From: Rhizobium binae
GTDB taxonomy: Bacteria > Pseudomonadota > Alphaproteobacteria > Rhizobiales > Rhizobiaceae
Length of the DNA stretch: 64,000 bases
Direction of reading: 5' to 3'
NCBI RefSeq assembly: GCF_017357225.1
Contig: NZ_CP071604.1
Location: 1,987,001-2,051,000, forward strand
Shown: positions 19,645-58,681 of the stretch, in pieces
How positions within the stretch are numbered: the stretch's first letter is position 1
How the letters are laid out: every line of letters starts with the position of its first letter
The notes under the pieces: model-generated
Databases searched by the model: none
What the model saw: only the letters and a program-made list of their open reading frames with translations
Told to the model about the DNA's origin: nothing
Translations under genes and position numbers: made by a program

Positions 19645-19719
19645 TGGCACGCCCTAGGGGAGTCGAACCCCTCTTCCCAGAATGAAAATCTGGTGTCCTA
19701 ACCGATAGACGAAGGGCGC
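19645..19719 (-). tRNA. tRNA-Glu (TTC)
   Basis: 75 nt including an encoded CCA. The acceptor GCGCCCT pairs with AGGGCGT (G1-U72 wobble), the anticodon loop is TTTTCAT with anticodon TTC, the T-loop is TTCGACT and the discriminator base is G. The gene and 5' flank are repeated almost exactly at 20379-20486. A promoter with 17-bp spacing lies directly upstream at 19738-19766. Confidence 0.97.
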
Positions 19720-19737
19720 TTCCTTCGTGGTGGCGCC

Positions 19738-19766
19738 CTTATAGTCAGCAGCTTCAAAAGCCGCAA
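19738..19766 (-). promoter_or_regulatory. Promoter of first tRNA-Glu
   Basis: On the minus strand TTGCGG (19761-19766), a 17-bp spacer and TATAAG (19738-19743). The -10 ends 18 bases before the mature tRNA, leaving a leader of roughly ten bases. Confidence 0.7.
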
Positions 19767-20232
19767 GCGCCAAGGCGCGAAAAAATCATCGTTTTCGCCG
19801 ATTTTTTTGCTGCCGTGGAAAAAGGGTGGCGAACGTTATGGCGGACGCAAGAATTCAAGTTCGGCGGATCGTTTGGGCGGCGTGACACGCCCCTACAGGT
19901 GCTCTGCACGACGCCTTGCGAGACCTGCCACATCTACTCACCGAACCTCGGGACGCTCCAGGAGGCGGTCGGTCCCACCGCGCGGAGATTGTCGCGGACG
20001 TCGCCAACCATGCGGACATCGCGCCCATCGTGCATTTCAGCGAAATCGTTGGAGGGTAAGAGCTTCGGCTCGTCAGGCGTATCCGTCGAACTTTCCGGGA
20101 TCGGCCCAGTGCTGGCGCACCTGATCCAGGGTGACGCAGCCGGTGTCGAACCGGTCGACGATCGGGAACAGGTGATTGCCGTTGAAGCGAAACTACCTGG
20201 CTCTCGTCAAAATCGGTGACCTAGCCCGAATG
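19767..20232. other. Spacer between tRNA-Glu genes with decayed coding remnants
   Basis: No intact gene. On the plus strand a frame from ATG 19838 to TAA 20057-20059 is broken by one TGA after 15 codons; its second part ends with a protein-like AEIVADVANHADIAPIVHF. On the minus strand 20192 down to the stop at 20073 encodes a 39-codon C-terminus-like piece (HLFPIVDRFDTGCVTLDQV, then HWADPGKFDGYA). Both look like leftovers of genes lost near the tRNA repeats. The parent families were not recognised. Confidence 0.3.
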
Positions 20233-20307
20233 TGGTACGCCCTAGGGGAGTCGAACCCCTCTTTACAGAATGAGAATCTGTCGTCCTAACCGATAGACGA
20301 AGGGCGC
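20233..20307 (-). tRNA. tRNA-Glu (CTC)
   Basis: 75 nt with encoded CCA. The anticodon stem-loop is ACAGA-TTCTCAT-TCTGT, giving anticodon CTC. It differs from the two TTC copies in the anticodon arm and in the discriminator, which is A instead of G. A promoter lies at 20322-20350. Confidence 0.96.
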
Positions 20308-20321
20308 AGGCTGGCTTCGTT

Positions 20322-20350
20322 ATGATAAGAGCGCAGGCCGGCTTCTGCAA
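20322..20350 (-). promoter_or_regulatory. Promoter of tRNA-Glu (CTC)
   Basis: Minus-strand TTGCAG (20345-20350), a 17-bp spacer and TATCAT (20322-20327), with the same spacing as the promoters of the two flanking tRNA-Glu genes although the surrounding sequence differs. Confidence 0.65.
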
Positions 20351-20380
20351 GCGGATGCGATGGTCTCAATGTCGAGAGAG

Positions 20381-20455
20381 TGGCACGCCCTAGGGGAGTC
20401 GAACCCCTCTTCCCAGAATGAAAATCTGGTGTCCTAACCGATAGACGAAGGGCGC
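20381..20455 (-). tRNA. tRNA-Glu (TTC), second copy
   Basis: Identical over the whole 75 nt to the copy at 19645-19719, including CCA and G discriminator. The identity extends two bases past the 3' end and about 31 bases into the 5' flank, through the -10 box. Confidence 0.97.
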
Positions 20456-44923: not shown

Positions 44924-47413
44924 GTGCCAACATTTTCGCCTAGTTTAGAGAAGGCGCTCCATCAGGCACTGACCTTTGCCAACGAGCGGCATCACGAATA
45001 TGCGACGCTCGAGCATCTGCTGCTCGCCCTGATCGACGATGCCGATGCGGCCGCGGTCATGGGTGCCTGCAATGTCGATCTCGACGCGCTGCGCAAGACG
45101 CTCGTCGAGTATGTCGATAACGAACTATCCAATCTGATCACCGGATATGACGAGGATTCGAAGCCGACTTCCGGCTTCCAGCGTGTTATCCAGCGCGCTG
45201 TCATCCATGTGCAGTCGTCCGGCCGCGAGGAAGTGACCGGCGCCAATGTGCTCGTCGCGATTTTCGCCGAGCGCGAAAGCCACGCCGCCTATTTCCTGCA
45301 GGAGCAGGAGATGACCCGCTACGACGCCGTCAACTACATCTCGCACGGCATCGGCAAGCGGCCGGGCGCCTCTGAGGCTCGACCTCCGCGCGGCGCCGAA
45401 GAGGAGGCCGAGAGCAAGCCTACCGCACGCGGCAGCGAGGAAGAGGGCGGGCCCAAGAAGCAGCAGGATGCGCTCAAGGCCTATTGCGTCAATCTCAACG
45501 AGAAGGCCAAGGGCGGCAAGATCGATCCGCTGATCGGCCGTCATGCCGAGGTGAGCCGTACCATCCAGATCCTGTGCCGCCGTTCGAAGAACAATCCGCT
45601 CTATGTCGGTGATCCCGGCGTCGGCAAGACGGCGATCGCCGAAGGCCTTGCCAAGCGCATCGTCGAAGGCAAGGTTCCCGAGGCGCTCGCCGATGCGACG
45701 ATCTTCTCGCTCGACATGGGCACGCTGCTTGCCGGCACGCGCTACCGCGGCGATTTCGAGGAGCGCCTGAAGCAGGTCGTCAAGGAACTGGAAGAATATC
45801 CGGGCGCTGTGCTGTTCATAGACGAGATCCATACGGTGATCGGCGCCGGAGCCACGTCGGGCGGGGCGATGGATGCATCGAACCTTTTGAAGCCGGCGCT
45901 GTCATCCGGCGCGATCCGCTGCATCGGTTCGACGACCTACAAGGAGTATCGCCAGTTCTTCGAGAAGGACCGGGCGCTGGTGCGTCGTTTCCAGAAGATC
46001 GACGTCAGCGAGCCGTCGATCAGCGATGCAATCGAGATCATGAAGGGTTTGAAGCCCTATTTCGAAGAGTATCATCACCTGCGTTATTCGAACGACGCGA
46101 TCAAATCGGCCGTCGAACTCTCGGCCCGCTACATTTCCGACCGCAAGCTGCCGGACAAGGCGATCGACGTGATCGACGAAACTGGCGCAGCCCAGATGCT
46201 GCTGCCGCCGTCGAAGCGCCGCAAGCTGATCACCGAAAAGGAAATCGAGGCAACGATCGCCACGATGGCGCGCATTCCGCCGAAAACCGTCTCCAAGGAT
46301 GACGAAGCGGTGCTGGCCAATCTCGAGCAGGAACTGCGCTCGGTCGTCTATGGCCAGGATATCGCCATCGAAGCTCTTTCGACCTCGATCAAGCTGGCGC
46401 GTGCCGGCCTGCGCGAGCCGAACAAGCCGATCGGCTCCTATGTTTTCTCTGGTCCGACCGGTGTGGGCAAGACCGAGGTGGCAAAGCAGCTGGCGTCGTC
46501 GCTCGGCGTCGAGCTTCTGCGCTTCGACATGTCGGAATATATGGAGCGGCATACGGTCTCGCGTCTGCTCGGTGCACCTCCCGGCTATGTCGGTTTCGAT
46601 CAGGGCGGTCTTCTCACAGATGGCGTCGACCAGCATCCGCATTGCGTCGTCCTGCTTGACGAAATCGAGAAGGCGCATCCTGATATTTACAACATCCTGC
46701 TCCAGGTCATGGATCATGGCACGCTGACCGACCATAACGGCAAGAAGATCGACTTCCGCAACGTCATCCTGATCATGACGACCAATGCGGGCGCGTCCGA
46801 AATGGCCAAGGCCGCGATCGGCTTCGGCTCGTCCAAGCGCACCGGCGAGGACGAAGAGGCGCTGACCCGTCTGTTCACGCCGGAGTTCCGCAACCGTCTC
46901 GACGCGATCATTCCCTTCGCGGCGCTGCCGACGGCTGTCATTCACAAAGTCGTGCAGAAGTTCATCATGCAGCTGGAGGCCCAGCTTTCCGAACGGAACG
47001 TCACCTTCGACCTGCATGAGGACGCAATCGCTTGGCTGGCGGAAAAGGGTTACGACGAGAAGATGGGCGCCCGCCCGCTTGCCCGCGTCATCCAGGACAC
47101 CATCAAGAAGCCGCTTGCCAACGAAATCCTCTTCGGCAAGCTGAAGAAGGGCGGTGTCGTCAACGTCACCGTCGGTCCGAAGGAAGACGGCAAGCCCGGC
47201 ATCGTGCTGGAAGCCGTACCGGATACAGCGCCGATCAAGCCGAAGCCGGAAGCCGAGGTTGTGCATCCTGAAGCCGATGACGAGGGCGACGGCGAACTGA
47301 AGACGAAGACGGCCCGCAAGACCCGCGCCAAGACGGTGCCGCAGGCAGAGCCAGAAGTTCGCGACGCCCCAAAGAAGGGAAGCACGGTCCCCAAGGTTCC
47401 GCGCAAGAAGTGA
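44924..47413 (+). CDS. clpA: ATP-dependent Clp protease ATPase subunit ClpA
   Basis: 829-residue AAA+ unfoldase. Residues 1-140 are the Clp N-domain; the first ATPase has Walker A GDPGVGKTAIAEGLAKRI and Walker B VLFIDEIHTVIGAG; the second has FSGPTGVGKTEVAKQLA and VVLLDEIEKAHPDIYN. The ClpP-docking IGF-type loop appears as AKAAIGFGSSKR. The C-terminus carries an extra tail of about 70 residues rich in Lys, Glu and Pro, beyond the usual end near GGVVNVTV. The start is GTG 44924. Terminator follows at 47433. Confidence 0.97.
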   Translation: MPTFSPSLEKALHQALTFANERHHEYATLEHLLLALIDDADAAAVMGACNVDLDALRKTLVEYVDNELSNLITGYDEDSKPTSGFQRVIQRAVIHVQSSGREEVTGANVLVAIFAERESHAAYFLQEQEMTRYDAVNYISHGIGKRPGASEARPPRGAEEEAESKPTARGSEEEGGPKKQQDALKAYCVNLNEKAKGGKIDPLIGRHAEVSRTIQILCRRSKNNPLYVGDPGVGKTAIAEGLAKRIVEGKVPEALADATIFSLDMGTLLAGTRYRGDFEERLKQVVKELEEYPGAVLFIDEIHTVIGAGATSGGAMDASNLLKPALSSGAIRCIGSTTYKEYRQFFEKDRALVRRFQKIDVSEPSISDAIEIMKGLKPYFEEYHHLRYSNDAIKSAVELSARYISDRKLPDKAIDVIDETGAAQMLLPPSKRRKLITEKEIEATIATMARIPPKTVSKDDEAVLANLEQELRSVVYGQDIAIEALSTSIKLARAGLREPNKPIGSYVFSGPTGVGKTEVAKQLASSLGVELLRFDMSEYMERHTVSRLLGAPPGYVGFDQGGLLTDGVDQHPHCVVLLDEIEKAHPDIYNILLQVMDHGTLTDHNGKKIDFRNVILIMTTNAGASEMAKAAIGFGSSKRTGEDEEALTRLFTPEFRNRLDAIIPFAALPTAVIHKVVQKFIMQLEAQLSERNVTFDLHEDAIAWLAEKGYDEKMGARPLARVIQDTIKKPLANEILFGKLKKGGVVNVTVGPKEDGKPGIVLEAVPDTAPIKPKPEAEVVHPEADDEGDGELKTKTARKTRAKTVPQAEPEVRDAPKKGSTVPKVPRKK

Positions 47414-47483: not shown

Positions 47484-48155
47484 CTAAGGGCACAATGTAA
47501 GATCGCGTACGAAATCTGCGAAAAAGGCTGAGGCATGAACGAATCTTTTATGCACGGCGATCGTCTGGGGGATTTGGGAGAATGTTCCTTCCACGAGCCG
47601 GAAGCCTGATATTCTTTCCGAAGTTTGGATCAGATATTCGGTCAGTCCAGCAGCCGCAGTGCACCGCGACTCGACAAGCAGATTGATGGCCGTTGCAGGG
47701 CTATCAGTGTGGGAGACTGAAGCTCTTTGAAGGATTCGTTCGAGCTGCTTCGTATAGGCTGCACTCCTTGCAGAGGCGATCTGGACTCCTTCGACGTCAA
47801 CATCCTGGACACTCTGGAAGGATGAACTGTCTGGCACCAGATAGGTCGCTTCGACGGAGATGTATGGAGGTGAGAAGGAGAAGCGGTCGACTCTTGATGG
47901 ATCCGAGGCAATGAAAGCGATGTCCCATTCGTCGCCGTCGGCATTGGCAAGTATGTCGGCAGCCGAGCCATATTGGATTAGAGAGAGGCCGCAATCCAAT
48001 TGTTCGGCAATCTTGTGGGCTATCTGAGCGCTGGGCCCGACCAACGCGCCCGCCTTATCATCCCATCGGACCAACGCCGCATTTGACATATTGATGGCGG
48101 CCCTGATAGCGCCGGTAGGCGCTATCTCAGCCAAAATCTGCTTGCGCGTCGACAT
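47484..48155 (-). CDS. Leaderless periplasmic-binding-protein-like protein
   Basis: 223 residues with the type 2 periplasmic binding fold: GAIRAAINMSNAALVRWDD, LVGPSAQIAHKIAEQLDCGL, DEWDIAFIASDPSRVDRFSF and SPPYISVEATYLVPDSSSF. It begins MSTRKQILAEIAPTG with no signal peptide and no upstream ATG that would add one, so it is probably cytoplasmic. It closes the minus arm of the catabolic cluster. It might sense a pathway intermediate or sequester substrate; the real periplasmic receptor is encoded at 53859. Confidence 0.8.
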   Translation of the reverse strand: MSTRKQILAEIAPTGAIRAAINMSNAALVRWDDKAGALVGPSAQIAHKIAEQLDCGLSLIQYGSAADILANADGDEWDIAFIASDPSRVDRFSFSPPYISVEATYLVPDSSSFQSVQDVDVEGVQIASARSAAYTKQLERILQRASVSHTDSPATAINLLVESRCTAAAGLTEYLIQTSERISGFRLVEGTFSQIPQTIAVHKRFVHASAFFADFVRDLTLCP

Positions 48156-48166
48156 CTTCGAACTCC

Positions 48167-48931
48167 CTAAGATGCGAACCTGGCCGCGAGCGCTTCGGAC
48201 CCTCTTGCGAGTAGGGCGACATCTACACCGACTGCGGTAAACAGCGTCCCCAGCGAAACGCAGCGGGCCGCGAACTTCTCGTCGGGGGTGAGTATGCCCG
48301 TCGGCTTTCCAAGCGCCTTCAAGCGCCGTATCGCGTCCTCGATCGCCACAACCACTTCAGGGTGGCCCGGTTGACCGGGATGGCCAAAGCTCGCCGCGAG
48401 ATCAGCCGGGCCGATGAAGATGCCGTCCACTCCTTCGACAGCGGCGATGGACTCGAGATGATCGAGCGCTTCCCTGGTCTCGATTTGAAGAAGCAGGCAT
48501 ATCTCCTGCTCCGCCATCTGTGCGTAGTTCGAAACGCGCCCGAAGCGTGTGGCCCGCGTCAAGGCGGAGACACCGCGAATCCCGCGCGGCGGATACCTTA
48601 TGGCTGCTACGGCGGCCATCGCCTCCTCTTCATTCTGCACATAAGGAACGAGCAGTGTCTGCACGCCGATGTCCAGGAACCGCTTGATCAGCACAGGGTC
48701 GTTGAAGGCAGGGCGTACGACGGGAGAAACGCTGTAGGGTGCCACCGCCTGCAATTGGGGCAGGACGGTGAGGACGTCGCTGGGAGAGTGCTCGGTGTCG
48801 AACAGCAACCAGTCGAAGCCCGCCGGCGCCACGATTTCGGCTGCGTAGCTTCCCGGAAGGCCGCACCATAGACCGATCTGGCTTTGCCCAGCCATAAGCT
48901 TCCGCTTAAAGTGATTGACGGGGAGTTCCAT
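48167..48931 (-). CDS. HpcH/HpaI-family aldolase
   Basis: 254-residue class II aldolase, relatives of which cleave 4-hydroxy-2-oxoheptanedioate to pyruvate and succinic semialdehyde. Family residues: [86 protein letters not shown] and [16 protein letters not shown] 48931 has GAGG at five bases and lies just past the hydratase stop. It follows the HpaH-like gene in the order seen in homoprotocatechuate operons. The exact substrate is unproven. Confidence 0.9.
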
Positions 48932-48938
48932 CGCCACC

Positions 48939-49721
48939 TCACACGAACGAAACGCCGATGGAGCCGACCGGCCCGTAATCAGCCTGGATGACATCGCCCT
49001 TGGCGATATCCACGGGGCGGGTGAACGAACCGGCAAGAACGATCTGGCCCTTCTTCAAGCCGCCTCCGACAGCATGGAGCTTGTTCACGAGCCATGCGAT
49101 CCCGGCGGCTGGATGCCCCATGATGGCTGCGGAAACGCCCGACTCCTCGATGATGCCATTTTTCGAAAGCGTCGCGCCGACCCAGCGGATATCGACATCC
49201 ATGGGCCGAACGATACGACCACCCACGACGATCGCTCCGAAGGCCGCGTTGTCGGCGATCGTGTCGGTGATCGCTCTTGGCACTTCGGTTCGATAGTCGA
49301 TGATTTCGAGAGCGGGAACGACAAATTCGGTCGCCCTCATGACGTCATAGATACGGGTGCCTGGGCCTTCAAGATCCTCGCTCATTACGAATGCGAGTTC
49401 GACTTCGAGACGAGGCTTGATGAACAGATCCGCTTTGATCTGCGCGCCATCATTGAAGAGAGCGTCGTCGAGAATGACGCCGTAATCGGGCTCCGTCATC
49501 TTCGAGGCCATCTGCATTGCCCGCGACGTCAGTCCGATCTTGTGGCCGACGATCCGTGCACCTTTCGCAATCCGCGCCTGCGCCCAGAGCGCTTGTATGA
49601 TGTAGGCGTCTTCGAGTTCCAGGTTCGGGTATGTCTTGCTTGGCTGGATGATTGGCTTGCGTTCGACTTCGGCCCTCAGCAGCGCGTCGGCTGCCTCCTG
49701 GCGTTCCTTTTCCGTGATCAT
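48939..49721 (-). CDS. HpaH-like 2-oxo-acid hydratase
   Basis: 260-residue hydratase of the 2-keto-4-pentenoate / 2-oxohept-3-ene-1,7-dioate hydratase family. Features: [71 protein letters not shown] and [14 protein letters not shown]. It would hydrate an unsaturated oxo-acid to the 4-hydroxy-2-oxo acid used by the following aldolase. Closest in pattern to HpaH, but the family is broad. It lies between the dioxygenase and the aldolase. Confidence 0.88.
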
Positions 49722-49741
49722 GATTTGGCTCTGCTGGTTCG

Positions 49742-50635
49742 TTATTTGATCGGAGGGCGCGGCAAGACGGCTTCGCCGGGCTCCATGACATAGGTGTAGT
49801 CAAGCGAGAACCACGGTCCTGCGACGTCTGCGTCGGACGGGTGCGGTTGTTCATGCCGGACGAAGTTGCCCGTCAACGCCGCGGTCACGCCAAACTGCAC
49901 GTCGGAGTCGATATTCGGATCGCTCGGGTCGAAGACCTGGGAGATGAGTGTCTTGTACCCGCGCTTAAAGATGAGAGCGTGCAGATGGGCGGGGCGATAG
50001 GGGTGACGGCCTTGCGCCTTGAGCAGGCGACCCACGACCCCGTCGACCGGGATCGGATAACCAACCATCTTGACCGTTCTGAACCAGAAGCGGCCTTCTT
50101 CGTTCGTGGTGAGCTTCCCACGGAGATTCATTTCTGCCTGATCGGGATCCTGGTTTTCGTAAAGACCGACAGGCGACGCATGCCACACGTCGACCTCGGC
50201 GCCTGCTATAGGCTTGCCGTCCCGATCGACCACCTTCGCATGGACGAACAAGGGCGTGCCTGGCGTCTCGGACCTGATGATGGTTCCGCCGTTCTCGACA
50301 CGCGGCGAGTTAAGCCGCCAGAATGGTCCGAGCAGCGATTGCGACGTCTCCGTCTGCCCCCTGTCCCCGTTATTGAGCAGGCAGACGAGCGAAGAGACGC
50401 CGAGCGAACCTGCCATCAGCACGAACTCGTTGTGACTGTCGGTCTGCAGTTGGCCTATTTCGTTGAGGACCGCCGTGGCCTCGCGGAATTCAGCTTCCGA
50501 AAGCCTGACCTCTCGTACGAACGCGTGGAGATGCTTCACCATTGCGACGAGTATTTCACGCAGCCTAGGATCCCTGGTGCGGTTCATCACGGCGAGGACG
50601 GCAGGCGTCAACTCGCTCTCAGTTCTGATTGGCAT
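49742..50635 (-). CDS. Intradiol ring-cleavage dioxygenase (hydroxyquinol/catechol 1,2-type)
   Basis: 297-residue Fe(III) dioxygenase with the N-terminal helical dimerisation domain typical of catechol and hydroxyquinol 1,2-dioxygenases (VKHLHAFVREVRLSEAEF, LLGPFWRLNSPR). The four iron ligands are present: Tyr in ASPVGLYENQD, Tyr in MVGYPIPVDG, and His-x-His in RPAHLHALI. It opens an ortho-diphenol ring between the hydroxyls, giving a muconate or maleylacetate. It heads the minus arm and is driven by a promoter overlapping an operator at 50666-50681. Hydroxyquinol is the more likely substrate, by gestalt only. Its pairing with meta-pathway-type enzymes is unusual. Confidence 0.88.
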   Translation of the reverse strand: MPIRTESELTPAVLAVMNRTRDPRLREILVAMVKHLHAFVREVRLSEAEFREATAVLNEIGQLQTDSHNEFVLMAGSLGVSSLVCLLNNGDRGQTETSQSLLGPFWRLNSPRVENGGTIIRSETPGTPLFVHAKVVDRDGKPIAGAEVDVWHASPVGLYENQDPDQAEMNLRGKLTTNEEGRFWFRTVKMVGYPIPVDGVVGRLLKAQGRHPYRPAHLHALIFKRGYKTLISQVFDPSDPNIDSDVQFGVTAALTGNFVRHEQPHPSDADVAGPWFSLDYTYVMEPGEAVLPRPPIK

Positions 50636-50658
50636 GCTGCCACCTCCTCATGGCGCCC

Positions 50659-50686
50659 AGTATCAAAATAATCGATTATTTGTCAA
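50659..50686 (-). promoter_or_regulatory. Dioxygenase promoter with overlapping operator
   Basis: On the minus strand TTGACA (50681-50686) and a -10-like GATACT (50659-50664) with 16-bp spacing. The perfect palindrome AAATAATCGATTATTT (50666-50681) fills the spacer, so a bound regulator would block RNA polymerase. Confidence 0.65.
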
Positions 50687-50823
50687 GCTGACTGAGTGTA
50701 TCTCAAGCGCTGTGTTTTGCTTATGCATCTGTTGGATGGTAGTTAAATTGTTAAAAATAAAGAGTAAAGTGGTTTGATGTGATGTGTTTGCTGGAAAATG
50801 AGCTGCTTTTTTGCATGGGCAAG

Positions 50824-50852
50824 TTGACACCAATAATCGTTTATTATATCGA
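50824..50852 (+). promoter_or_regulatory. gntR promoter with operator copy
   Basis: TTGACA (50824-50829), then AATAATCGTTTATT (50832-50845), which differs at one base from the dioxygenase operator, and an AT-rich -10 candidate around 50845-50852. The gntR start is about 32 bp downstream. Confidence 0.6.
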
Positions 50853-50883
50853 TCATCGAAAGTTTGATTGTCCGGGAGGAGAG

Positions 50884-51621
50884 ATGGACTCGAGCGACGA
50901 CGCCGCCCTTGGCGCACTGGCAGAAGAAGGCGCGCCGTCTGCTGCTTTCGCCGACAATGGAAAAAATACCATCGGCAGCCAGCTCGCATCGCGTCTTCGA
51001 GAGGCGATCATTTCCGGGGAACTGGAGGCGGGCAGCAAGATCAATCTCGACAAGGCGCGAAAGACGTTCAACGTCAGCCTGAGTCCGTTGCGCGAAGGCC
51101 TGGCCCGACTCATTTCCGACGGCTTGGTTGAGTTTCAGGACAATCGAGGCTATCGCGTCGCCCCGATTTCGCTTGCCAATCTCGAAGAAGTTACGACCCT
51201 CCGGGAGGAGCTCGAGGTCTTCGCGCTACGCGAATCCATTCGCGTCGGCGATGTCGAGTGGGAGGGCAACATCATGCGTGCGCTCCATCGTCTGAACCGT
51301 ACCGAGCGCGATGCCGCCCGTCCCGAAACGCTGGAATATTGGGAAGCGCTGCACCGCGAATTCCACCTCACCTTGATCTCGGGCTGTGGCAAGCCCCTGC
51401 TTCTTCACTTCTGCAATCTCCTGCTAAATCTGAACGACCGATACCGTCGCGCCTTCCTTGTCCGCACATCCGGGGACCGCAATGTAGGTCAGGAACACAG
51501 CGAGATTGCGCAGGGCGCCGTGGCACGCGACGTTGAATATGCCTGCGAGAAGCTGCGACAGCACATCCACCGCACCGGAACCAATCTTCGAAATCATCTT
51601 GCGGCGAAAGGTGTCGTATGA
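50884..51621 (+). CDS. GntR-family regulator, FCD subclass
   Basis: 245-residue transcription factor. A disordered 28-residue N-terminus is followed by the winged helix (IGSQLASRLREAIISGELEA, LDKARKTFNVSLSPLREGLA, GLVEFQDNRGYRVAP) and an FCD ligand-binding domain with metal-site residues in LREELEVFALRES, EYWEALHREFHLTLISGCG and HSEIAQGAVARD. It likely represses both arms of the cluster until a substrate or intermediate binds. ATG 50884 follows GGGAGGAG. Its stop overlaps the start of the TIM-barrel gene (ATGA). Confidence 0.92.
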   Translation: MDSSDDAALGALAEEGAPSAAFADNGKNTIGSQLASRLREAIISGELEAGSKINLDKARKTFNVSLSPLREGLARLISDGLVEFQDNRGYRVAPISLANLEEVTTLREELEVFALRESIRVGDVEWEGNIMRALHRLNRTERDAARPETLEYWEALHREFHLTLISGCGKPLLLHFCNLLLNLNDRYRRAFLVRTSGDRNVGQEHSEIAQGAVARDVEYACEKLRQHIHRTGTNLRNHLAAKGVV

Positions 51622-52442
51622 TGGCCGCCTCAAGACCAAAATCGGCGCTCCCGATCGGCATCGCGCACTTCTCGTCTATAATGCTGCCCCCCGCGGAGTT
51701 CGCGAAGATTGCCGGACGCGCAGGTTTCTCCAGGATCGGCCTCCGGCTCCATCCGGCCTTTCCCGGTGCGCCGTACTATGAACTGCCTGTCGGTAGCGCG
51801 GCCGCCGGAGAGTTGAAGTCTGTGCTTGCCGGTGAAGAAGTAGAGGTCTTCGATATCGAGTTCTTCGTCATCGATCCCTCTTTCGACGCGTCGTCGGTGG
51901 AGGCGACCCTGGCGGCGGCGGCGAACGTTGGAGCGCGACGGCTCAGCGTCTGTGGCGACGATCCCGATCATGCCAGACTGTTATCGAACTTTTCGGATTT
52001 CTGCGTCCTCGCGGAACGGTACGGCTTGGCGGTCGACATCGAAAACATGGGCTGGCGGGTGGTCAAAGCCTTTGAGGATAGCATCGACCTCGTGACAGGG
52101 GCGAGGATGGAGAATGCCGGCGTTCTCGTCGATGGCATCCATTTCTTCAGGAACGGCGCGGCCTTGGCAGACTTGCGGGCCAACCTCGACAAAGTGAAAC
52201 ATGTTCAACTATGCGATGTAGCCGGCCCAGCGCCGACAAAGCAGGAGGAAATGATCGCGGAGGCAAGAAGCGGCCGACTGCCTCCGGGCGAGGGGGAGCT
52301 GCCGCTGAGGGATTTGGTTGCTGTGGTCGGCACCGCCGCTTCCATCTCGGTGGAGGTGCCGCTGGTCGGATCCATCGCGCCGGAGACCCACCTTAAACAT
52401 CTTTTCAACTGCGCGGAAAGAATGGTCGGACCGAATCGATAG
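51618..52442 (+). CDS. TIM-barrel isomerase/dehydratase, 3-dehydroshikimate dehydratase-like
   Basis: 274-residue AP-endonuclease-2-type TIM barrel. Metal-site motifs are visible: VDIENMGWRVVK with Glu, GVLVDGIHFFRNG with Asp and His, VKHVQLCDVAG with Gln/Asp, and SISVEVPL with the last Glu. The block RLPPGEGELPL is typical of sugar-phosphate isomerase and 3-dehydroshikimate dehydratase relatives. Given a dehydroquinase and a shikimate dehydrogenase homologue in the same operon, dehydration of 3-dehydroshikimate to protocatechuate is the best guess. Isomerisation of a sugar-like acid is the alternative. It overlaps gntR by four bases. Confidence 0.8.
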   Translation: MMAASRPKSALPIGIAHFSSIMLPPAEFAKIAGRAGFSRIGLRLHPAFPGAPYYELPVGSAAAGELKSVLAGEEVEVFDIEFFVIDPSFDASSVEATLAAAANVGARRLSVCGDDPDHARLLSNFSDFCVLAERYGLAVDIENMGWRVVKAFEDSIDLVTGARMENAGVLVDGIHFFRNGAALADLRANLDKVKHVQLCDVAGPAPTKQEEMIAEARSGRLPPGEGELPLRDLVAVVGTAASISVEVPLVGSIAPETHLKHLFNCAERMVGPNR

Positions 52443-52489
52443 TCCGGCGCGGGTGCAAATAATCCGCACCGGAAGGAGGAAAATCATCC

Positions 52490-53158
52490 ATGGGTTATAC
52501 GTTCGATTTTGGTGCGGTCTTTGACCGCGCCCCGGAGTTGCTTTGGGGTTCGCTCGGCACGATAGGGCTGGCGCTCGCGGGAATGCTCCTCGCGCTTTTA
52601 ATCGGCATTCTTGGCGTTGCCGCCAGAACGTCCAAGATTCCGCTCGTTCGAGCTCCCGTCATCGGGTTCGTCGAAGTCGTCCGGAACACGCCTTTCCTCG
52701 TGCAGATTTTCTTCATCTACTTCGCGCTCCCCTTGATGGGGATACGTCTGAACCCGACCGTCACCGCGATCATCGCGCTGGGCATCAACGGCGGTGCCTA
52801 TGCGATCGAGATCATCCGCGGCGGCGTCGAGAGCGTCAGCAAAGGTCAGATCGAGGCAGGGTTCGCGCTTGGCCTCCATAAGGGCGACGTCTTCCGGTTG
52901 ATCGTGCTGGAGCCGGCTCTCCGGGCAATCTATCCGTCGCTCACAAGTCAGTTCGTGATGCTGACCCTCACGACCTCCGTCTGCACCTCGATCGCAGCCT
53001 ACGAGCTGACATCGGCGGCGCAGAGAATCGAATCCGATACGTTCCGCAGCTTCGAGGTCTACTTCACCGTAACCGCCATCTACCTCGTCATTTCGACCCT
53101 GATGATGGGTATGTTCGCCCTGATCTCCCGCCACCACTTCAACTACCCAACGCGATAG
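52490..53158 (+). CDS. Polar-solute ABC transporter permease
   Basis: 222-residue permease of the HisM/GlnP family with several membrane segments, starting with LGTIGLALAGMLLALLIGIL. The EVVRNTPFLVQIFFIYFAL segment and the EAA loop GGVESVSKGQIEAGFALGLH identify the class. It follows the TIM-barrel gene by 47 bp and precedes a second permease by ten. The class usually imports amino acids, but related systems take other small polar or carboxylated solutes. Confidence 0.92.
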   Translation: MGYTFDFGAVFDRAPELLWGSLGTIGLALAGMLLALLIGILGVAARTSKIPLVRAPVIGFVEVVRNTPFLVQIFFIYFALPLMGIRLNPTVTAIIALGINGGAYAIEIIRGGVESVSKGQIEAGFALGLHKGDVFRLIVLEPALRAIYPSLTSQFVMLTLTTSVCTSIAAYELTSAAQRIESDTFRSFEVYFTVTAIYLVISTLMMGMFALISRHHFNYPTR

Positions 53159-53168
53159 GAGGGACTTT

Positions 53169-53819
53169 ATGGGTCCCATCGGCGAAAACGAATTTCTATT
53201 CATCTTGCAGGGTCTGAAATGGACCGTACTGCTAGCGATCATCGGCTTTGTAGGTGGGGGCCTGTTCGGGATATTGATCGCCCTGGCGCGCACTTCAAGG
53301 AACCGAACTGTGCGCGTCGCGACTTCGGGCTACATCGCACTGTTCCAGGGCACGCCGCTCCTGATGCAGCTTTTCGTCGTGTACTACGGCGTGGCGCTGC
53401 TCGGTATTGATGTCAATGCCTGGATCGCGGTGGCTATCGCCTTCACTCTTCATGCGAGTGCCTTCCTCGGCGAGATCTGGCGCGGCTCTATCGAAGCCGT
53501 TCCGAAAGGTCAGAACGAAGCAGCAAATGCACTCGGCCTGCACTACGTATCGCGGATGAAGGACGTGATCCTTCCGCAGGCCCTGAAAATCTCCATGCCT
53601 GCGACCATCGGCTTCCTTGTCCAGCTCATCAAAGGGACGTCGCTCGCCGCGATCGTGGGCTTCATCGAGCTGACCCGAGCTGGTCAGATTATCTCGAACC
53701 AGACCTATCGGCCGCTCCTCGTCTTCGGGATCGTCGGCCTGATCTATTTCATCATTTGCTGGCCGCTGTCGCACCTTGGAAGCGGCCTCGAAAAACGGAT
53801 GGCGAAAGCAGTCCGCTAA
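53169..53819 (+). CDS. Polar-solute ABC transporter permease, second subunit
   Basis: 216-residue permease partner. The LFQGTPLLMQLFVVYYGVAL segment and the EAA loop GSIEAVPKGQNEAANALGLH are canonical, as is the C-terminal EKRMAKAVR. Together with the preceding permease it would form the heterodimeric channel. AGGAGG lies eight bases before ATG 53169. Confidence 0.92.
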   Translation: MGPIGENEFLFILQGLKWTVLLAIIGFVGGGLFGILIALARTSRNRTVRVATSGYIALFQGTPLLMQLFVVYYGVALLGIDVNAWIAVAIAFTLHASAFLGEIWRGSIEAVPKGQNEAANALGLHYVSRMKDVILPQALKISMPATIGFLVQLIKGTSLAAIVGFIELTRAGQIISNQTYRPLLVFGIVGLIYFIICWPLSHLGSGLEKRMAKAVR

Positions 53820-53858
53820 CTGCTTCGTTCGAAGCAAACCAAAGAGGAGGAGTAAGCA

Positions 53859-54683
53859 ATGCAGATCAACCGTAGGAAATTTCTCGGAATAGCTTTTGCG
53901 ACGGCCGCTTTCGCGACCATCGGCGCCGCCGCCGCATCGGCCGCCACTGTCGAAGAGATCAAAGCCAAGGGCACTCTCGTCGTCGGCATCCAGGGCGACA
54001 ACGCACCATGGGGCTTTGTGAATACGAGCGGCAAGCAGGACGGCTTCGACGCCGACATCGCGACGCTGTTCGCCAAGGAACTCGGCGTGAAGGTCGAGTT
54101 CCAGCCGCTCGCCGTCGCGAACCGAATTCCGGCGCTGACGACGGGGAAGGTGGATATCCTGTTCGCCACAATGGCCATGACTGAGGAGCGCGCGAAATCG
54201 ATCCAGTACAGCAAGCCGTATGCGGCGAACACAATCTCTCTCTATGCCGCGAAGGCCGATGCCGTAAAGGCGCCGGCCGATGTGGCCGGCTGGGAGATCG
54301 GTGTGCCCAAGTCGAGCTCGCAGGATAAGGCTGTGACGGACGCCGTGGGATCGACTGCAACGATCCGCCGCTTCGACGATGACGCCGCCACTATCCAGGC
54401 TCTCATTTCGGGTCAGGTGAGGGCTGTCGGCGGCAACCAGTTCTACGGACAGAGGCTCGATGCGGCCAGCGCCGGGACCTACGAGAGTAAGATTGACTTC
54501 CTGAAGACCTACAACGGCGTCGGAACGCGCCTTGGCGAGAAGGACTGGAACGAAGCCGCCAACAGCTTCATCGACAAGATTAAGGCAAGCGGGGAACTGG
54601 CGACCATCACCAAGAAGTGGATGGGCATCGACCTCCCGACTTTCCCCGAATCCATCCCCAACATCCCGTTCACCGTCAAGTAA
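53859..54683 (+). CDS. ABC transporter periplasmic binding protein with Tat-like leader
   Basis: 274-residue type 2 binding protein. The leader MQINRRKFLGIAFATAAFAT carries a twin-arginine RRKFLG motif, suggesting Tat export, and cleavage near ASA-ATVEE. The fold is clear from VEEIKAKGTLVVGIQGDNAP, WGFVNTSGKQDGFDADIATL, TGKVDILFATMAMTEERA and the C-terminal WMGIDLPTFPE. It is the receptor for the two permeases and the ATPase that follows. The ligand is unknown; the operon suggests a quinate/shikimate-like acid or an aromatic derivative. Confidence 0.92.
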   Translation: MQINRRKFLGIAFATAAFATIGAAAASAATVEEIKAKGTLVVGIQGDNAPWGFVNTSGKQDGFDADIATLFAKELGVKVEFQPLAVANRIPALTTGKVDILFATMAMTEERAKSIQYSKPYAANTISLYAAKADAVKAPADVAGWEIGVPKSSSQDKAVTDAVGSTATIRRFDDDAATIQALISGQVRAVGGNQFYGQRLDAASAGTYESKIDFLKTYNGVGTRLGEKDWNEAANSFIDKIKASGELATITKKWMGIDLPTFPESIPNIPFTVK

Positions 54684-54701
54684 AGATACAGGGAGGGCGC
54701 C

Positions 54702-55463
54702 GTGCTCAATTCTTCAAACGATCAGTCGACATTGATTTCACTTGAGAAGCTGCAGAAATGGTACGGCTCCTTCCACGCTCTGAAGAACATCAGCCTGTCG
54801 GTTCGCAAGGGCGAGAAGATTGTCCTTTGCGGCCCGTCAGGTTCTGGCAAATCGACTTTGATCCGCTGCATCAATGCGCTTGAGACGATCCAGGATGGGA
54901 AGATCGTCGTCGAGGGACAGCTGCTGGATGGCAGCACCAAGGCTGTGGACACGATCCGACGCGAAGTGGGGATGGTGTTCCAGAGTTTCAATTTGTTCCC
55001 TCACATGACCGTGCTTCAGAACTGCACGCTAGCCCCCATGCGCGTTCGCGGCACCGGCCGCGCCGACGCCGAACGACTGGCACGAAAATATCTGGAGCGT
55101 GTCAGGATTCTTGATCAGGCGGAGAAATATCCCGCCCAGCTTTCCGGCGGCCAGCAACAGCGCGTCGCAATCGCGCGTGCGCTCTGCATGGAGCCGAAAG
55201 TGATGCTGTTCGATGAGCCCACGAGCGCGCTAGACCCGGAGATGGTCAAGGAAGTGCTGGATACAATGATCGGGCTCGCACGCGACGGCATGACCATGAT
55301 CTGTGTGACCCATGAAATGGGCTTCGCCCGCCAGGTGGCAGACAGGGTCATCTTCATGGCCTCCGGTGAGATTATCGAAGAGGCTAAACCCGAGATTTTC
55401 TTCAAGTCTCCGCAGCACGAGCGCACCAAGGCGTTTCTCGGCGAAATACTTGCCCATCACTGA
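54702..55463 (+). CDS. ABC transporter ATPase
   Basis: 253-residue importer ATPase similar to AapP/GlnQ. Walker [16 protein letters not shown]-loop FQSFNLF, signature [14 protein letters not shown], Walker [12 protein letters not shown], switch [13 protein letters not shown] 54702 is the start with GGAGGG upstream. It is distinct from AapP in this window, with no sign of recent duplication. Confidence 0.94.
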
Positions 55464-55481
55464 TCCGGTAGAGCTATCAAA

Positions 55482-56330
55482 ATGGACAACAGGAAATTTC
55501 ATGTCGGGCTGGTCGGAGCGGACATTCAGATGTCGAAGTCGCCGGCTCTCCACGAGACCGAGGCATATCATCTTGGACTGGAATATCGGTACGAGCTTCT
55601 CGATCTGACCGAGCGTGGTCTGCCTGCATCTGCGCTGCCAGACCTTCTCGACGAGATCGAACGCCGGGGCTTTGCGGGAAGCAACATCACTCACCCGTGC
55701 AAGCAGACCGTCATCGCTCACCTTACCGACCTGTCGGAAGATGCCCGGATGCTCGGTGCAGTCAACACGGTCGTGCTTCGCAATGGAAAGCGGATTGGGC
55801 ACAACACCGACTGGTACGGCTTTTATAAGAACTTCGAGCGCGGATTACCCGAGGTTGCCAAAACACATGCGGTTCTGCTCGGCGCAGGCGGCGCCGGGGT
55901 CGCAGTCGCACACGCAGCCATCAAGCTCGGAATCGAGGTGCTTTCGATCTTCGACCAGGACGCAAATCGCGCCGCAATGCTTGCCGATCAGCTCAATCAG
56001 CGCTTCTCCAAAAGGTGCGCGCAGCCGATCAGCGATGTCAGCGCCACGCTCGCTTCAGCCGACGGGCTGATCCACGCCACGCCGACGGGTATGCGAAGCC
56101 ATCCTGGCATTCCAATCGACCCGGAAGCGCTTCAGTCACGTCACTGGGTCGCTGATATTGTCTACATGCCACTCGTGACCGAACTTCTGGCTTTGGCCGA
56201 AAAGAAGGGCTGCAGAACACTGCCCGGTGGTGGAATGACGGTATTCCAGGCCGCCGCGGCGTTCGAATTGTTCACGAGCGTGCAGCCGGACGCGGAACGA
56301 ATGTTGCATCATTTCGAAGAGTTGCCATGA
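55482..56330 (+). CDS. Shikimate dehydrogenase homologue (catabolic type)
   Basis: 282-residue AroE-fold enzyme. The substrate domain shows VGLVGADIQMSKSPALHE with the Ser-Lys-Ser-Pro signature, GSNITHPCKQTVIAHL with the catalytic Lys, and GAVNTVVLRNGKRIGHNTDWYG with the Asn-Thr-Asp motif. The nucleotide loop is VLLGAGGAGVAVAHAAIKLG, and the end has LPGGGMTVFQAAAAFELFT. Its sequence departs from housekeeping AroE, and together with the second dehydroquinase it points to quinate or shikimate oxidation. Confidence 0.9.
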   Translation: MDNRKFHVGLVGADIQMSKSPALHETEAYHLGLEYRYELLDLTERGLPASALPDLLDEIERRGFAGSNITHPCKQTVIAHLTDLSEDARMLGAVNTVVLRNGKRIGHNTDWYGFYKNFERGLPEVAKTHAVLLGAGGAGVAVAHAAIKLGIEVLSIFDQDANRAAMLADQLNQRFSKRCAQPISDVSATLASADGLIHATPTGMRSHPGIPIDPEALQSRHWVADIVYMPLVTELLALAEKKGCRTLPGGGMTVFQAAAAFELFTSVQPDAERMLHHFEELP

Positions 56331-56345
56331 GCCGGAGGACATGCG

Positions 56346-56714
56346 ATGCCGCACATCATCATTGACTATAGCCGGGGCGCTGCCGAGCGCGTCCTTATCG
56401 ACGAGCTCACCAGAGCAGTGCATCGCCGAGTCCGCGACGCGGGCCTGGTAAAGCCTACTATAGTTCGCACATTCGCCAGAGAAGCGACTTTCTCCTGCGT
56501 CGGTGACGAACATGCCGACAATCACTTCATTCAAATAATTGTGCGCCTGGCTCCCGGACGGACGAAGGAGATCAAAAGAGAACTGCTGAGAGCGGTTCTC
56601 GACGCCGCGCAGAATGTCGCAGCACCCGCACTGCAGGAAGGTCGGCTTGGGCTTCGCGCCGATCTCTACGAGTCCGATCCGAATTTCGCATTCCAGGAAA
56701 TAGCACTCGCCTGA
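56346..56714 (+). CDS. CHMI-like isomerase (HpaF family)
   Basis: 122-residue tautomerase-superfamily protein starting [16 protein letters not shown] with the N-terminal proline (Pro1 after Met removal) that is catalytic in the family. The length and the [20 protein letters not shown] helix fit 5-carboxymethyl-2-hydroxymuconate isomerase (HpaF) better than the 62-residue 4-oxalocrotonate tautomerases. It would isomerise an unsaturated 2-hydroxy/2-oxo acid, consistent with HpaH- and HpaI-like genes in the opposite arm. Confidence 0.8.
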
Positions 56715-56745
56715 ACTCGCCGGTGCTTTCACAAGGGTAAATGCA

Positions 56746-57195
56746 ATGAGCCTGATCTATGTTCTTAACGGTCCAAACCTCAACCTCCTGGGCAAGCGCC
56801 AGCCTCACATCTACGGCCACGAGACACTGGCCGACGTAGAGACCTCCTGCCGGAAGCTGGCATCCGAACTCGGACACGAGCTCCGCTTCCACCAGAGCAA
56901 CCGCGAATATGAAATCATCGACTGGATCCATGAAGCGCGTGAGAATGGAGCCGGCATCGTGATCAATCCAGCTGCATTCACGCACACGTCGCTTGCCATC
57001 CTCGACGCTCTGAATACGTTCGAAGGTCCCGTCATCGAGATCCATATCTCCAACGTGCATAAGCGCGAAAGCTTCCGCCATCACTCCTTTGTCTCTCATC
57101 GGGCAGACGGCGTAATCGCCGGGCTTGGAACGGAAGGCTACCAGCTCGGTATCCGCCGCGTCGCGACAATGCTGAAGACCCCGAAAAACGATTGA
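56746..57195 (+). CDS. 3-Dehydroquinate dehydratase, type II (second, catabolic copy)
   Basis: 149-residue type II dehydroquinase. All active-site segments are intact: [46 protein letters not shown] and [17 protein letters not shown]. It clearly differs from the housekeeping copy at 7730-8167 (for example PAAFTH against AGAYTH), so it is an old paralogue. In the operon it would convert 3-dehydroquinate to 3-dehydroshikimate during quinate breakdown. Confidence 0.94.
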
Positions 57196-57201
57196 CGCAA
57201 A

Positions 57202-58239
57202 ATGGTCGACCGGGTCAAACTAGCGGTCCTCGGCGCGGGGCTGATTGGAAAGCGTCATATTCGGCATGTCCTGGAAGAACCCGCGGCCGAGCTAGTCGCC
57301 GTGGTGGATCCCACGTCGCTTGGGCAGGAGATCGCACGCAACGCCGGCGTCAGATGGTTCCCAAGCTTTGGCGACATGATCAGCGCGCAGCGTCCGGATG
57401 GCGTCATTATCGCGACTCCCAACCAGATGCATGTCCGGAACGGCATGGACGCAGTGGCAGCTGGAATCCCGGCTTTGATTGAGAAGCCGATCGTCGACGA
57501 TGTCACGGCCGGCGAGAAACTGATCAAGATGGCCGAAGCCAAGGGTATCCCGCTTCTGACGGGGCATCATCGCCGACACGCGCCGATGATGCAGAAAGCC
57601 AAGCAGATCATTGAAAGCGGAGAGCTCGGTCGGATACTGGTCGTCAATGCAATGTTCTGGCTGTTCAAGCCGGACAATTATTTCGACACGCCCTGGCGGC
57701 GCGAGCGGGGCGCAGGGCCGGTCTTCCTAAACCTCATCCACGACATCGACAATCTTCGCTACCTGTTGGGGGATATCGCGGCTGTCCAGGCGCGCGAGTC
57801 CAACGCAATGCGCGGATATGCCGTCGAGGAGACAGCTGTGATCCTCATCGAATTCAAGAACGGAATTCTGGGCAGCGCGTCGGTTTCGGATTCTGTTGTG
57901 GCGCCATGGAGCTGGGAGATGACGACTGGAGAGAACGCGGCCTATCCGAAGACGGAAGAAGCCTGCTACATGATTGGCGGAACCCGCGGATCACTCGCCG
58001 TTCCCTCACTGGACATATGGCGCAACCCGGCGGAGCGGAGCTGGCTGGAGCCCTTCGCCCGGAAGCGCATCGACGTCGAGAACCAGGACCCGCTCGTCCT
58101 TCAGATACGGCAGTTCTGCAACGTCATACGAGGTCACGAAGAACCCCTGGTCAGTGGGCGAGAGGGATGGGAAACCCTGAGGGTGATCGATGCCGTTAAA
58201 CGGTCCGCGGCCACGCTCCAGCGCGTTGCGCTGCCGTGA
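57202..58239 (+). CDS. Gfo/Idh/MocA-family oxidoreductase
   Basis: 345-residue NAD(P)-dependent oxidoreductase. The Rossmann loop is LAVLGAGLIGKRHIRHVLEE, the conserved IEKPIVDDV carries the catalytic EKP motif, followed by GHHRRHAPMMQKAKQIIESG and NLIHDIDNLRYLLGDI. Members oxidise sugar or cyclitol hydroxyls; here it might oxidise quinate or a related cyclohexane acid. Last gene of the plus arm, six bases after the dehydroquinase. Confidence 0.9.
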   Translation: MVDRVKLAVLGAGLIGKRHIRHVLEEPAAELVAVVDPTSLGQEIARNAGVRWFPSFGDMISAQRPDGVIIATPNQMHVRNGMDAVAAGIPALIEKPIVDDVTAGEKLIKMAEAKGIPLLTGHHRRHAPMMQKAKQIIESGELGRILVVNAMFWLFKPDNYFDTPWRRERGAGPVFLNLIHDIDNLRYLLGDIAAVQARESNAMRGYAVEETAVILIEFKNGILGSASVSDSVVAPWSWEMTTGENAAYPKTEEACYMIGGTRGSLAVPSLDIWRNPAERSWLEPFARKRIDVENQDPLVLQIRQFCNVIRGHEEPLVSGREGWETLRVIDAVKRSAATLQRVALP

Positions 58240-58252
58240 AGCACGTCGCGTG

Positions 58253-58681
58253 CTACCTATCCAAGGCTGCCCTGATCTTTTCGGCATTGGTGGCCAGCAC
58301 CGCCCCGTCCTCCATCTTGCCGGAATGCGGCTTCAGCGCGACGCCTTCATGACGGGGAATGACGTGGAAATGCAGATGGAACACCGTCTGCCCGGCGGCC
58401 GGTTCGTTGAACTGGGCGATAAACACACCATCGGCATCGAAGACTTTTTCGAGCGCCTTGGCGACCTTCTGAACGACGGTGATGGCATGGGCGAGGGTGG
58501 CGGGATCGGCATCGAGGATATTGCGGGAAGGCGCCTTCGGAACGACGAGCACATGGCCCGGCGCCTGCGGCATCACGTCCATGAAGGCGACCGTATGCTG
58601 ATCCTCGTAGATCCGGTGCGAGGGGATTTCGCCGCGCAGGATCTTGGCGAAGATATTGTTGTCGTCATAGGCGCTGGTCAT
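58253..58681 (-). CDS. HIT-family hydrolase
   Basis: 142-residue histidine-triad protein. The triad is HLHFHVIPRH; the N-terminus NIFAKILRGEIPSHRIYED and AFMDVMPQAPGHVLVVPK are standard for HinT-like nucleoside phosphoramidase. It converges on the Gfo/Idh gene and marks the return of core sequence after the cluster. Confidence 0.93.
   Translation of the reverse strand: MTSAYDDNNIFAKILRGEIPSHRIYEDQHTVAFMDVMPQAPGHVLVVPKAPSRNILDADPATLAHAITVVQKVAKALEKVFDADGVFIAQFNEPAAGQTVFHLHFHVIPRHEGVALKPHSGKMEDGAVLATNAEKIRAALDR

Follow-up and report, generated by a model that had tools for sequence, protein, structure and literature searches.

A divergent gene cluster of Rhizobium binae with a possible route from hydroaromatic acids through a vicinal triphenol

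Gene content and organisation of the cluster

The window considered here is a stretch of 64,000 nucleotides from Rhizobium binae (contig NZ_CP071604.1, here C1, of a 7,055,288-base Rhizobium-group genome), and its positions 47484-58239 carry 14 genes in two divergent arms, flanked on one side by clpA (44924-47413) and on the other by a HIT gene (58253-58681). The cluster combines an intradiol ring-cleavage dioxygenase with enzymes of the homoprotocatechuate meta pathway families. It is read here, with a probability of roughly two in five, as a self-contained and locally regulated route that would degrade a quinate- or shikimate-type acid via a vicinal triphenol, most likely gallate, bypassing protocatechuate.

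The left arm is encoded on the minus strand and comprises the dioxygenase (49742-50635), an HpaH-family 2-oxo-4-enoate hydratase (48939-49721), an HpaI-family class II pyruvate aldolase (48167-48928) and a 223 aa protein with a periplasmic binding protein (PBP) fold, termed cSBP (47484-48155). The right arm, on the plus strand, begins with a GntR/FCD regulator (50779-51621; PF00392, PF07729) and a TIM-barrel protein of the dehydroshikimate dehydratase/IolI type (51618-52442). These are followed by an ABC importer composed of two permeases, the first of the polar amino acid type (52490-53158 and 53169-53819), a periplasmic binding protein (53859-54683) and an ATPase (54702-55463). The last four genes encode a quinate/shikimate dehydrogenase-like protein of the AroE family (55482-56330), a CHMI-family tautomerase (56346-56714), a second copy of the type II 3-dehydroquinate dehydratase AroQ (56746-57195) and a Gfo/Idh/MocA oxidoreductase (57202-58239; PF01408, PF02894, PF22725). 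Pfam and NCBIfam scans covered ten of the 14 proteins; the two permeases and the ATPase, outside the scan set, were assigned by reading their sequences and from their conserved position across loci, and AroQ was assigned from homology, from its likewise conserved position and from its conserved NGPNLN and HISN.HKRE-type stretches. A sequence-only reading of this DNA had named the same genes at the same places and in the same order, and the ten scanned proteins match the families that it gave them. Among the 14 genes there is no recognised decarboxylase or monooxygenase, and neither the extradiol dioxygenase HpaD nor the CHMS dehydrogenase HpaE is present.

The ring-cleavage dioxygenase

The dioxygenase contains a Dioxygenase_N domain (PF04444) as well as PF00775, and its best PDB matches are the hydroxyquinol dioxygenases 1tmx and PnpC (3n9t). 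The two tyrosines and two histidines that ligate the iron are kept in all 104 distinct sequences of the clade, as is Arg218 (1tmx numbering). Four pocket positions differ from 1tmx in every one of these sequences, and in 112/112 before the removal of duplicates: D83 is replaced by Gly, V107 and F108 by Leu, and V251 by Gln, corresponding to Gly76, Leu101, Leu102 and Gln247 of the window protein. The pocket residues of 1tmx, Asp83 and Val107 in particular, presumably matter for hydroxyquinol, and a pocket from which one acidic and one bulky residue have gone might well accommodate a carboxylate-bearing substrate. Judged by its residues, the enzyme is a distinct clade within the hydroxyquinol dioxygenase family.

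That it is itself a hydroxyquinol 1,2-dioxygenase, with the Hpa-type enzymes serving some other branch, would agree with its closest structures, but is highly improbable in view of the altered pocket and of a paralogue on contig C4 (L127) that keeps Asp, Val, Phe and Val at these positions and adjoins an iron-type alcohol dehydrogenase. Furthermore, none of the 14 genes resembles a maleylacetate reductase, and a pyruvate aldolase could not act on maleylacetate. Hydroxyquinol was rejected as the ring substrate on account of the pocket changes and of this separate enzyme.

Lower-pathway enzymes and the chemistry of ring opening

The HpaI-family aldolase exceeds the cut-off of the TIGR02311 equivalog model (404.8 against 368.8 bits), and its best PDB matches, 2v5j and 4b5s, are both HpaI proteins. 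The HpaH-family hydratase passes TIGR02312 only just (357.8 against 351.5 bits), and its best PDB match is a 2-oxo-hept-3-ene-1,7-dioate hydratase (2eb4). The CHMI-family protein matches PF02962 (67.8 bits, cut-off 26.5) and starts with Met-Pro, as do all 48 sequences compared; the profile scan gave no NCBIfam match for it, and a PDB sequence search at E 0.001 returned nothing for either this protein or the TIM-barrel protein. All three lower-pathway enzymes have paralogues on contig C2 (L170), to which HpaH is 49%, HpaI 50% and CHMI 31% identical. The C2 versions of HpaH (440 bits) and HpaI (405.9 bits) stand together with CHMI, HpaD (TIGR02295, 420.1 bits, cut-off 321.4) and aldehyde dehydrogenase-like genes.

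The apparent contradiction between an intradiol enzyme and meta-pathway enzymes vanishes if the ring substrate is a vicinal triphenol, because its cleavage gives a 2-hydroxymuconate. A 1,2,3-triol opened between the OH-bearing carbons yields a 2-hydroxydienoate and, after tautomerisation, a 2-oxo acid; catechols (1,2-diols) and hydroxyquinol (a 1,2,4-triol) do not yield 2-hydroxymuconate by intradiol cleavage. This compound is the entry point for a tautomerase, a hydratase and a pyruvate aldolase, and extradiol routes reach the same point differently. Protocatechuate was likewise rejected as the ring substrate, since a route through a pyruvate aldolase depends on a 2-hydroxy group, which its intradiol product does not have. 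The diphenol that the sequence-only reading had postulated should instead be a vicinal triphenol.

Import and upper-pathway proteins

The periplasmic binding protein (PF00497, 122.4 bits) has the carboxylate-binding arginine, Arg111, in 59/59 sequences. In amino acid-binding proteins of the polar amino acid (PAAT) type an aspartate contacts the α-amino group of the ligand. This residue is replaced by Asn193 in 57 of the 59 sequences (and by Ala and Ser in one each), and AncQR has Asp in the same column. The AroE-like protein scores well above the cut-off of NF009201 (443.5 against 235 bits) with 3jyo, a quinate/shikimate dehydrogenase, as its best PDB match, and it occurs together with the dehydroquinase in the cluster, their activities being predicted. 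The description of this dehydroquinase as a second copy is borne out by another type II enzyme, 50% identical to it and presumably biosynthetic, that is encoded on the minus strand at 7748-8158 of the window.

The 223 aa protein of the left arm matches SBP_bac_3 (PF00497) with 29.7 bits, and its structural model (pLDDT 92.5) comes nearest to amino acid solute-binding proteins and cyclohexadienyl dehydratases, which are tied. It had been described as a binding-protein-like factor, of which the fold holds good; a signal peptide is not visible by eye. The model makes a sensor, or an enzyme akin to cyclohexadienyl dehydratase, its candidate roles.

The TIM-barrel protein (PF01261, xylose-isomerase-like) appears to have kept its catalytic half and changed its substrate half. 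Residues E142, D172, H175, Q197, R220 and E246 align with E134, D165, H168, Q191, R210 and E239 of QuiC1/QsuB, and the metal-binding and catalytic residues are invariant in 26 sequences. Ser206 corresponds to Ala216. In the N-terminal half, which aligns poorly, no counterpart of Arg64 is seen, and the further invariant residues R43, D79 and E81 lie there. The protein reaches 21.1 bits against NF042435, a model of a two-domain protein with a cut-off of 1200. If it were nevertheless a true dehydroshikimate dehydratase, there could be two exits from 3-dehydroshikimate, one through this protein to the pcaHG-like genes on C4 (L128; 51 and 43% identical to Bradyrhizobium ones) and one in which the dioxygenase, CHMI, HpaH and HpaI clear gallate that arises as a side product or is taken up. 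The likeness to protocatechuate-forming dehydratases is compatible with this arrangement, but it is distinctly unlikely given the substitution of Ser206, the missing Arg64 and the different set of invariant N-terminal residues. Moreover, the E/D/H/Q/E residue set is common throughout the TIM-barrel superfamily, and a QuiC-like protein that retains all ten active-site residues of QuiC1/QsuB is already encoded on contig C3.

This 629 aa protein (691.1 bits against the NF042435 cut-off of 1200) lies at L129 beside genes read as a TRAP-type importer and an AroE-like protein (54-55%). The set is like Sinorhizobium meliloti SMb20034-37, genes described as encoding AroE and a TRAP system for D-quinic acid (PMC3454389). 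The window cluster is therefore an additional route, since homoprotocatechuate, hydroxyquinol-type and QuiC-like quinate genes all lie elsewhere in the genome. A plain qui/qsu route to protocatechuate, which the sequence-only reading had allowed for, is not supported for the cluster: such a set is the one on C3, and HpaH and HpaI could not use the carboxymuconate that would result.

Regulation

The intergenic region holds an operator-like palindrome, AATAATCGATTATT, at 50667-50680 in front of the dioxygenase arm, and a second copy with one mismatch at 50832-50845, preceding the likely start of the regulator gene, which is probably the ATG at 50884 rather than the GTG at 50779. Taken by itself the window has three matches at 3 mismatches, an unremarkable number that 14/100 shuffles also reach; the evidence for an operator is comparative. 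The palindrome occurs upstream within 3 mismatches in 70, and within 2 mismatches in 68, of the 73 distinct regions in which an HpaH gene lies near the dioxygenase, as against 4/73 for the reversed motif; it was derived from members of this same set, and the upstream regions are related rather than independent events. The three exceptions (L063, L147 and L084) are among the four HpaH-type loci in which the GntR gene was not found, and the fourth (L069) does carry the palindrome. Among the 30 regions without HpaH the palindrome is confined to L050, where the contig stops at the dioxygenase. Genome-wide, sites with 0-1 mismatch number two, neither of them outside this intergenic region, and sites with 2 mismatches occur at four other places (one site for the reversed control). 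We infer from this distribution that the GntR protein binds the palindrome as its operator.

Conservation of the cluster and its relatives

The best 80 of 163 related loci were kept, and the window genes were mapped on 83 loci (L001-L083). Loci of Rhizobium, Sinorhizobium/Ensifer, Mesorhizobium and Shinella also have the block, which is present in rearranged or reduced form in Aureimonas, Bosea, Methylobacterium and Paracoccus; because it recurs across these genera, the cluster is more than a chance assembly, and the same gene set can thus be found in several rhizobial and other genera as the sequence-only reading had proposed to check. Closely related dioxygenases (95-98% identity) belong to Rhizobium croatiense, R. 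bangladeshense, R. sophoriradicis, R. phaseoli, R. ecuadorense and R. lentis. The clpA gene also flanks the cluster in four loci (L004, L005, L006 and L009), and in four Bradyrhizobium loci (L116, L143, L146 and L149) a dioxygenase group of 60-61% identity likewise lies near a clpA homologue. A dioxygenase match was found in 11/398 genomes of a phylum sample (E 1e-80) and in 8/385 of a class sample, the genome itself being included in both, and in 151/242 Bradyrhizobium genomes (E 1e-100), including matches of about 60% identity.

Gene neighbourhoods were counted for the 103 distinct dioxygenases that reach 70% identity or more, the window's own included, which derive from the 80 loci kept out of the 163, plasmid hits, the phylum and class samples and 20 Bradyrhizobium stretches. 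Neighbours are tblastn matches of at least 40% of the length, above gene-specific identity floors and within 10 kb, and many of the loci are truncated where a contig or the fetched stretch ends. HpaH accompanies the dioxygenase in 73/103, which is not a natural frequency as the Bradyrhizobium stretches were chosen by hand. These 73 loci contain GntR in 69 cases, the TIM-barrel protein in 68, HpaI in 67, AroQ in 58, the ATPase in 56, the binding protein in 55 and the PBP-fold protein in 52, and the AroE-like gene in 46 at 65% identity or above and in 55 at 25% or above. In one of them (L147, 9986-11000) HpaH matches in two pieces beside the dioxygenase and may be frameshifted.

The constancy of the TIM-barrel protein and AroQ, more regular than any other upper genes, would suit the import of a hydroaromatic acid that has an additional OH compared with quinate and that one oxidation and two dehydrations (by AroQ and the TIM-barrel protein) would convert directly to a trihydroxybenzoate. 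The formula balances and the genome holds a separate quinate-type system, but the cluster encodes two dehydrogenases, one too many for such a scheme, and no abundant natural substrate of this kind is known, making this a very remote prospect.

The 30 loci without HpaH have AroQ in eight cases, a flavoprotein dehydrogenase in six and HpaI in none. An oxalomesaconate tautomerase, LigJ and LigK occur in six each, all six being Bradyrhizobium loci. In many Bradyrhizobium loci (L073, L075, L112, L113, L114, L139, L141 and others) the dioxygenase lies between pcaF and pcaHG, as a second intradiol enzyme. In L120 (9001-14333), which has no HpaH, the dioxygenase (70%), AroQ (79%) and an AroE-like gene form a row with what appear to be a CoA transferase of the CaiB type, a hydratase of the MaoC type and a reductase of the PanE type.

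Around 19 distinct dioxygenases of 45-70% identity HpaI was never found, and a short-chain dehydrogenase (SDR) occurs near 11, a 3-keto-5-aminohexanoate cleavage-type protein (BKACE) near ten and a zinc alcohol dehydrogenase near six. HpaH is near one of them, the borderline L101 (70%), which resembles the main cluster. Ten loci (L085, L086, L087, L117, L118, L119, L122, L124, L125 and L145) place dioxygenases of 46-60% beside BKACE, most of them also with the SDR, the zinc alcohol dehydrogenase and a cupin, and these enzymes apparently serve another ring-cleavage route. Away from the cluster, three tRNA-Glu genes lie in close proximity at 19645-20455 of the window.

The proposed pathway

We infer every substrate and product of the following scheme, as well as the order of its upper steps, from the protein families. 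The ABC system would import a hydroxylated carboxylate without an α-amino group, which the AroE-like dehydrogenase and AroQ would convert to 3-dehydroshikimate. The Gfo/Idh/MocA protein may then oxidise another OH group of the ring and, if the TIM-barrel protein acts as an isomerase or dehydratase, the ring would aromatise to gallate. The dioxygenase would cut gallate between two OH groups to give 4-carboxy-2-hydroxymuconate, which the CHMI-family protein would ketonise to oxalomesaconate. Hydration at C4 by the HpaH-family enzyme and cleavage by the HpaI-family aldolase would finally release pyruvate and oxaloacetate. Because oxalomesaconate shows the 2-oxo-4-ene diacid arrangement of the HpaH substrate, CHMI, HpaH and HpaI are proposed to stand in for GalD, GalB and GalC. 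Formation of gallate from 3-dehydroshikimate is reported for a plant shikimate dehydrogenase in the accessible text of PMC6836501, and the chain of oxalomesaconate isomerase, hydratase and aldolase that ends in pyruvate and oxaloacetate is described for gallate degradation by Pseudomonas putida in the excerpted text of PMC10512348. A single divergent catabolic cluster with a hydroaromatic acid upstream, intradiol opening and an Hpa-type finish, as first surmised from the sequence, is supported. The fuller proposal of a second bacterial gallate pathway, leading from hydroaromatic plant acids to gallate, with intradiol opening and replacement of the Gal enzymes, widespread in plant-associated Rhizobiales, is possible but rather doubtful.

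A number of observations weigh against gallate as the intermediate. The fungal intradiol enzyme that converts pyrogallol to 2-hydroxymuconic acid leaves gallate unconverted, as far as the available sections of the source state (PMC9204233). It is hard to assign the TIM-barrel protein a step on the way through gallate. Cleavage by HpaI-family aldolases is known to yield an aldehyde, and a keto acid would be an unusual product. The clusters are also incomplete, with Gfo in 46, CHMI in 45 and AroQ in 58 of the 73 HpaH-type loci, and the plasmid locus L089 shows neither the TIM-barrel protein nor AroQ. Of the loci without HpaH at least 15 have pcaH and pcaG and no adjacent lower route for oxalomesaconate; three short loci are not counted in this figure, and their longer stretches (L112-L114) do show pcaHG.

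Bradyrhizobium loci offer oxalomesaconate genes near the dioxygenase. At L080 these encode an oxalomesaconate tautomerase and LigK, which exceed the cut-offs of NF033377 and TIGR02798 respectively, and a LigJ-like amidohydrolase. They were set aside as proof of the dioxygenase product, being weakened by LigB-family genes in 8/8 Bradyrhizobium genomes searched (G865, G972, G931, G841, G816, G969, G749 and G942). In five of these (G972, G841, G816, G969 and G942) a LigB-family gene lies on the same contig, 7-9 kb from the dioxygenase, which also tells against the gallate route, because the oxalomesaconate genes then have, at least in part, another reason for their presence. The gene at L172 scores above the cut-off of NF009903, a model of class III extradiol beta subunits, but stays below the cut-offs of the gallate dioxygenase and protocatechuate 4,5-dioxygenase models, and its row is read as a probable protocatechuate 4,5-cleavage operon. 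In L080 (5308-14238), L131, L133 and L134 a flavoprotein, AroQ, a 224 aa protein and the dioxygenase lie in a row near the oxalomesaconate genes. The flavoprotein is 3-ketosteroid dehydrogenase-like (NF009477, over cut-off), with a likeness to 4-oxocyclohex-2-ene-carboxylate dehydrogenase that is below cut-off, and it could aromatise dehydroshikimate.

On plasmid pSWIT02 of Rhizorhabdus wittichii RW1 (L084, 9922-13682) a FAD monooxygenase and a SnoaL-domain protein precede the dioxygenase (71%) and HpaH in a row. At least one relative would thus be fed by another route, a further point against a general supply from hydroaromatic acids. The plasmid is typed as conjugative, an HpcH/HpaI aldolase lies a few genes off and IS4-family transposases are found around the locus. 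The row would also agree with pyrogallol, or another decarboxylated vicinal triol, as the ring substrate: opening would give 2-hydroxymuconate, CHMI would form 2-oxohexenedioate, and HpaH and HpaI would produce pyruvate and malonate semialdehyde. Removal of the carboxyl group would require a step that is not recognised among the genes; a candidate for it is the cytosolic PBP-fold protein as a relative of the decarboxylating cyclohexadienyl dehydratases, which tie with solute-binding proteins as its nearest folds. The fungal enzyme mentioned above supplies the precedent for pyrogallol cleavage without gallate cleavage, and a fungal protein similar to gallic acid decarboxylase is called SnoaL-like in one portion of PMC10512348. 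Even so, pyrogallol is unlikely, given that a recognisable decarboxylase is absent from the 14 genes and that the PBP-fold protein is found in only 52/73 clusters and has the lowest identities of all cluster genes in distant loci. The RW1 SnoaL protein was itself dismissed as a candidate gallate decarboxylase, its single PDB match having an E value of 0.096. Gallate, opened directly by the dioxygenase, is kept as the preferred intermediate.

If correct, this reading would mean that the hydroxylation pattern of the ring, rather than the class of the dioxygenase, sets the lower pathway, and that shikimate-type acids gain a route avoiding protocatechuate. It would also give a function to the dioxygenase group that is matched in the majority of the Bradyrhizobium genomes sampled, and name candidate enzymes for the conversion of gallate or pyrogallol.

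Comparison with known systems

The enzyme families of the cluster are each known. Among the matches listed from open-licence PMC full text there was no paper on the gene combination, the dioxygenase subclade or the triphenol route, and the papers searched gave no named pathway for the set, in line with the earlier remark that it follows no textbook route.

The cluster shares the tautomerase-hydratase-aldolase chain of CHMI, HpaH and HpaI families with the homoprotocatechuate (hpa) meta pathway, but uses an intradiol enzyme in place of HpaD and has no HpaE-type aldehyde dehydrogenase. The proposed intermediates and order of reactions are those of the gallate (gal) and protocatechuate 4,5-cleavage (lig/pmd) routes via 4-oxalomesaconate, whereas here CHMI would replace GalD, HpaH would replace GalB/LigJ and HpaI would replace GalC/LigK, and a profile search for the LigB family (PF02900) gave zero matches in this genome. 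Like the qui and qsu systems the cluster has a quinate/shikimate dehydrogenase-like protein, a dehydroquinase and a TIM barrel resembling dehydroshikimate dehydratase; unlike them it adds ring-opening and lower enzymes, a PAAT-type ABC importer and a GntR/FCD regulator, and its TIM-barrel protein is single-domain and without some of the dehydratase residues. The dioxygenase agrees with the hydroxyquinol 1,2-dioxygenases (1tmx, 3n9t) in domains and iron ligands and differs from them in the four pocket positions and in its linkage to HpaH and HpaI. Finally, the gallate/pyrogallol route of the yeast Blastobotrys, likewise reaches 2-hydroxymuconate by intradiol opening of a vicinal triol, but employs a fungal catechol dioxygenase and a separate decarboxylase, the later enzyme not being identified there (PMC9204233).

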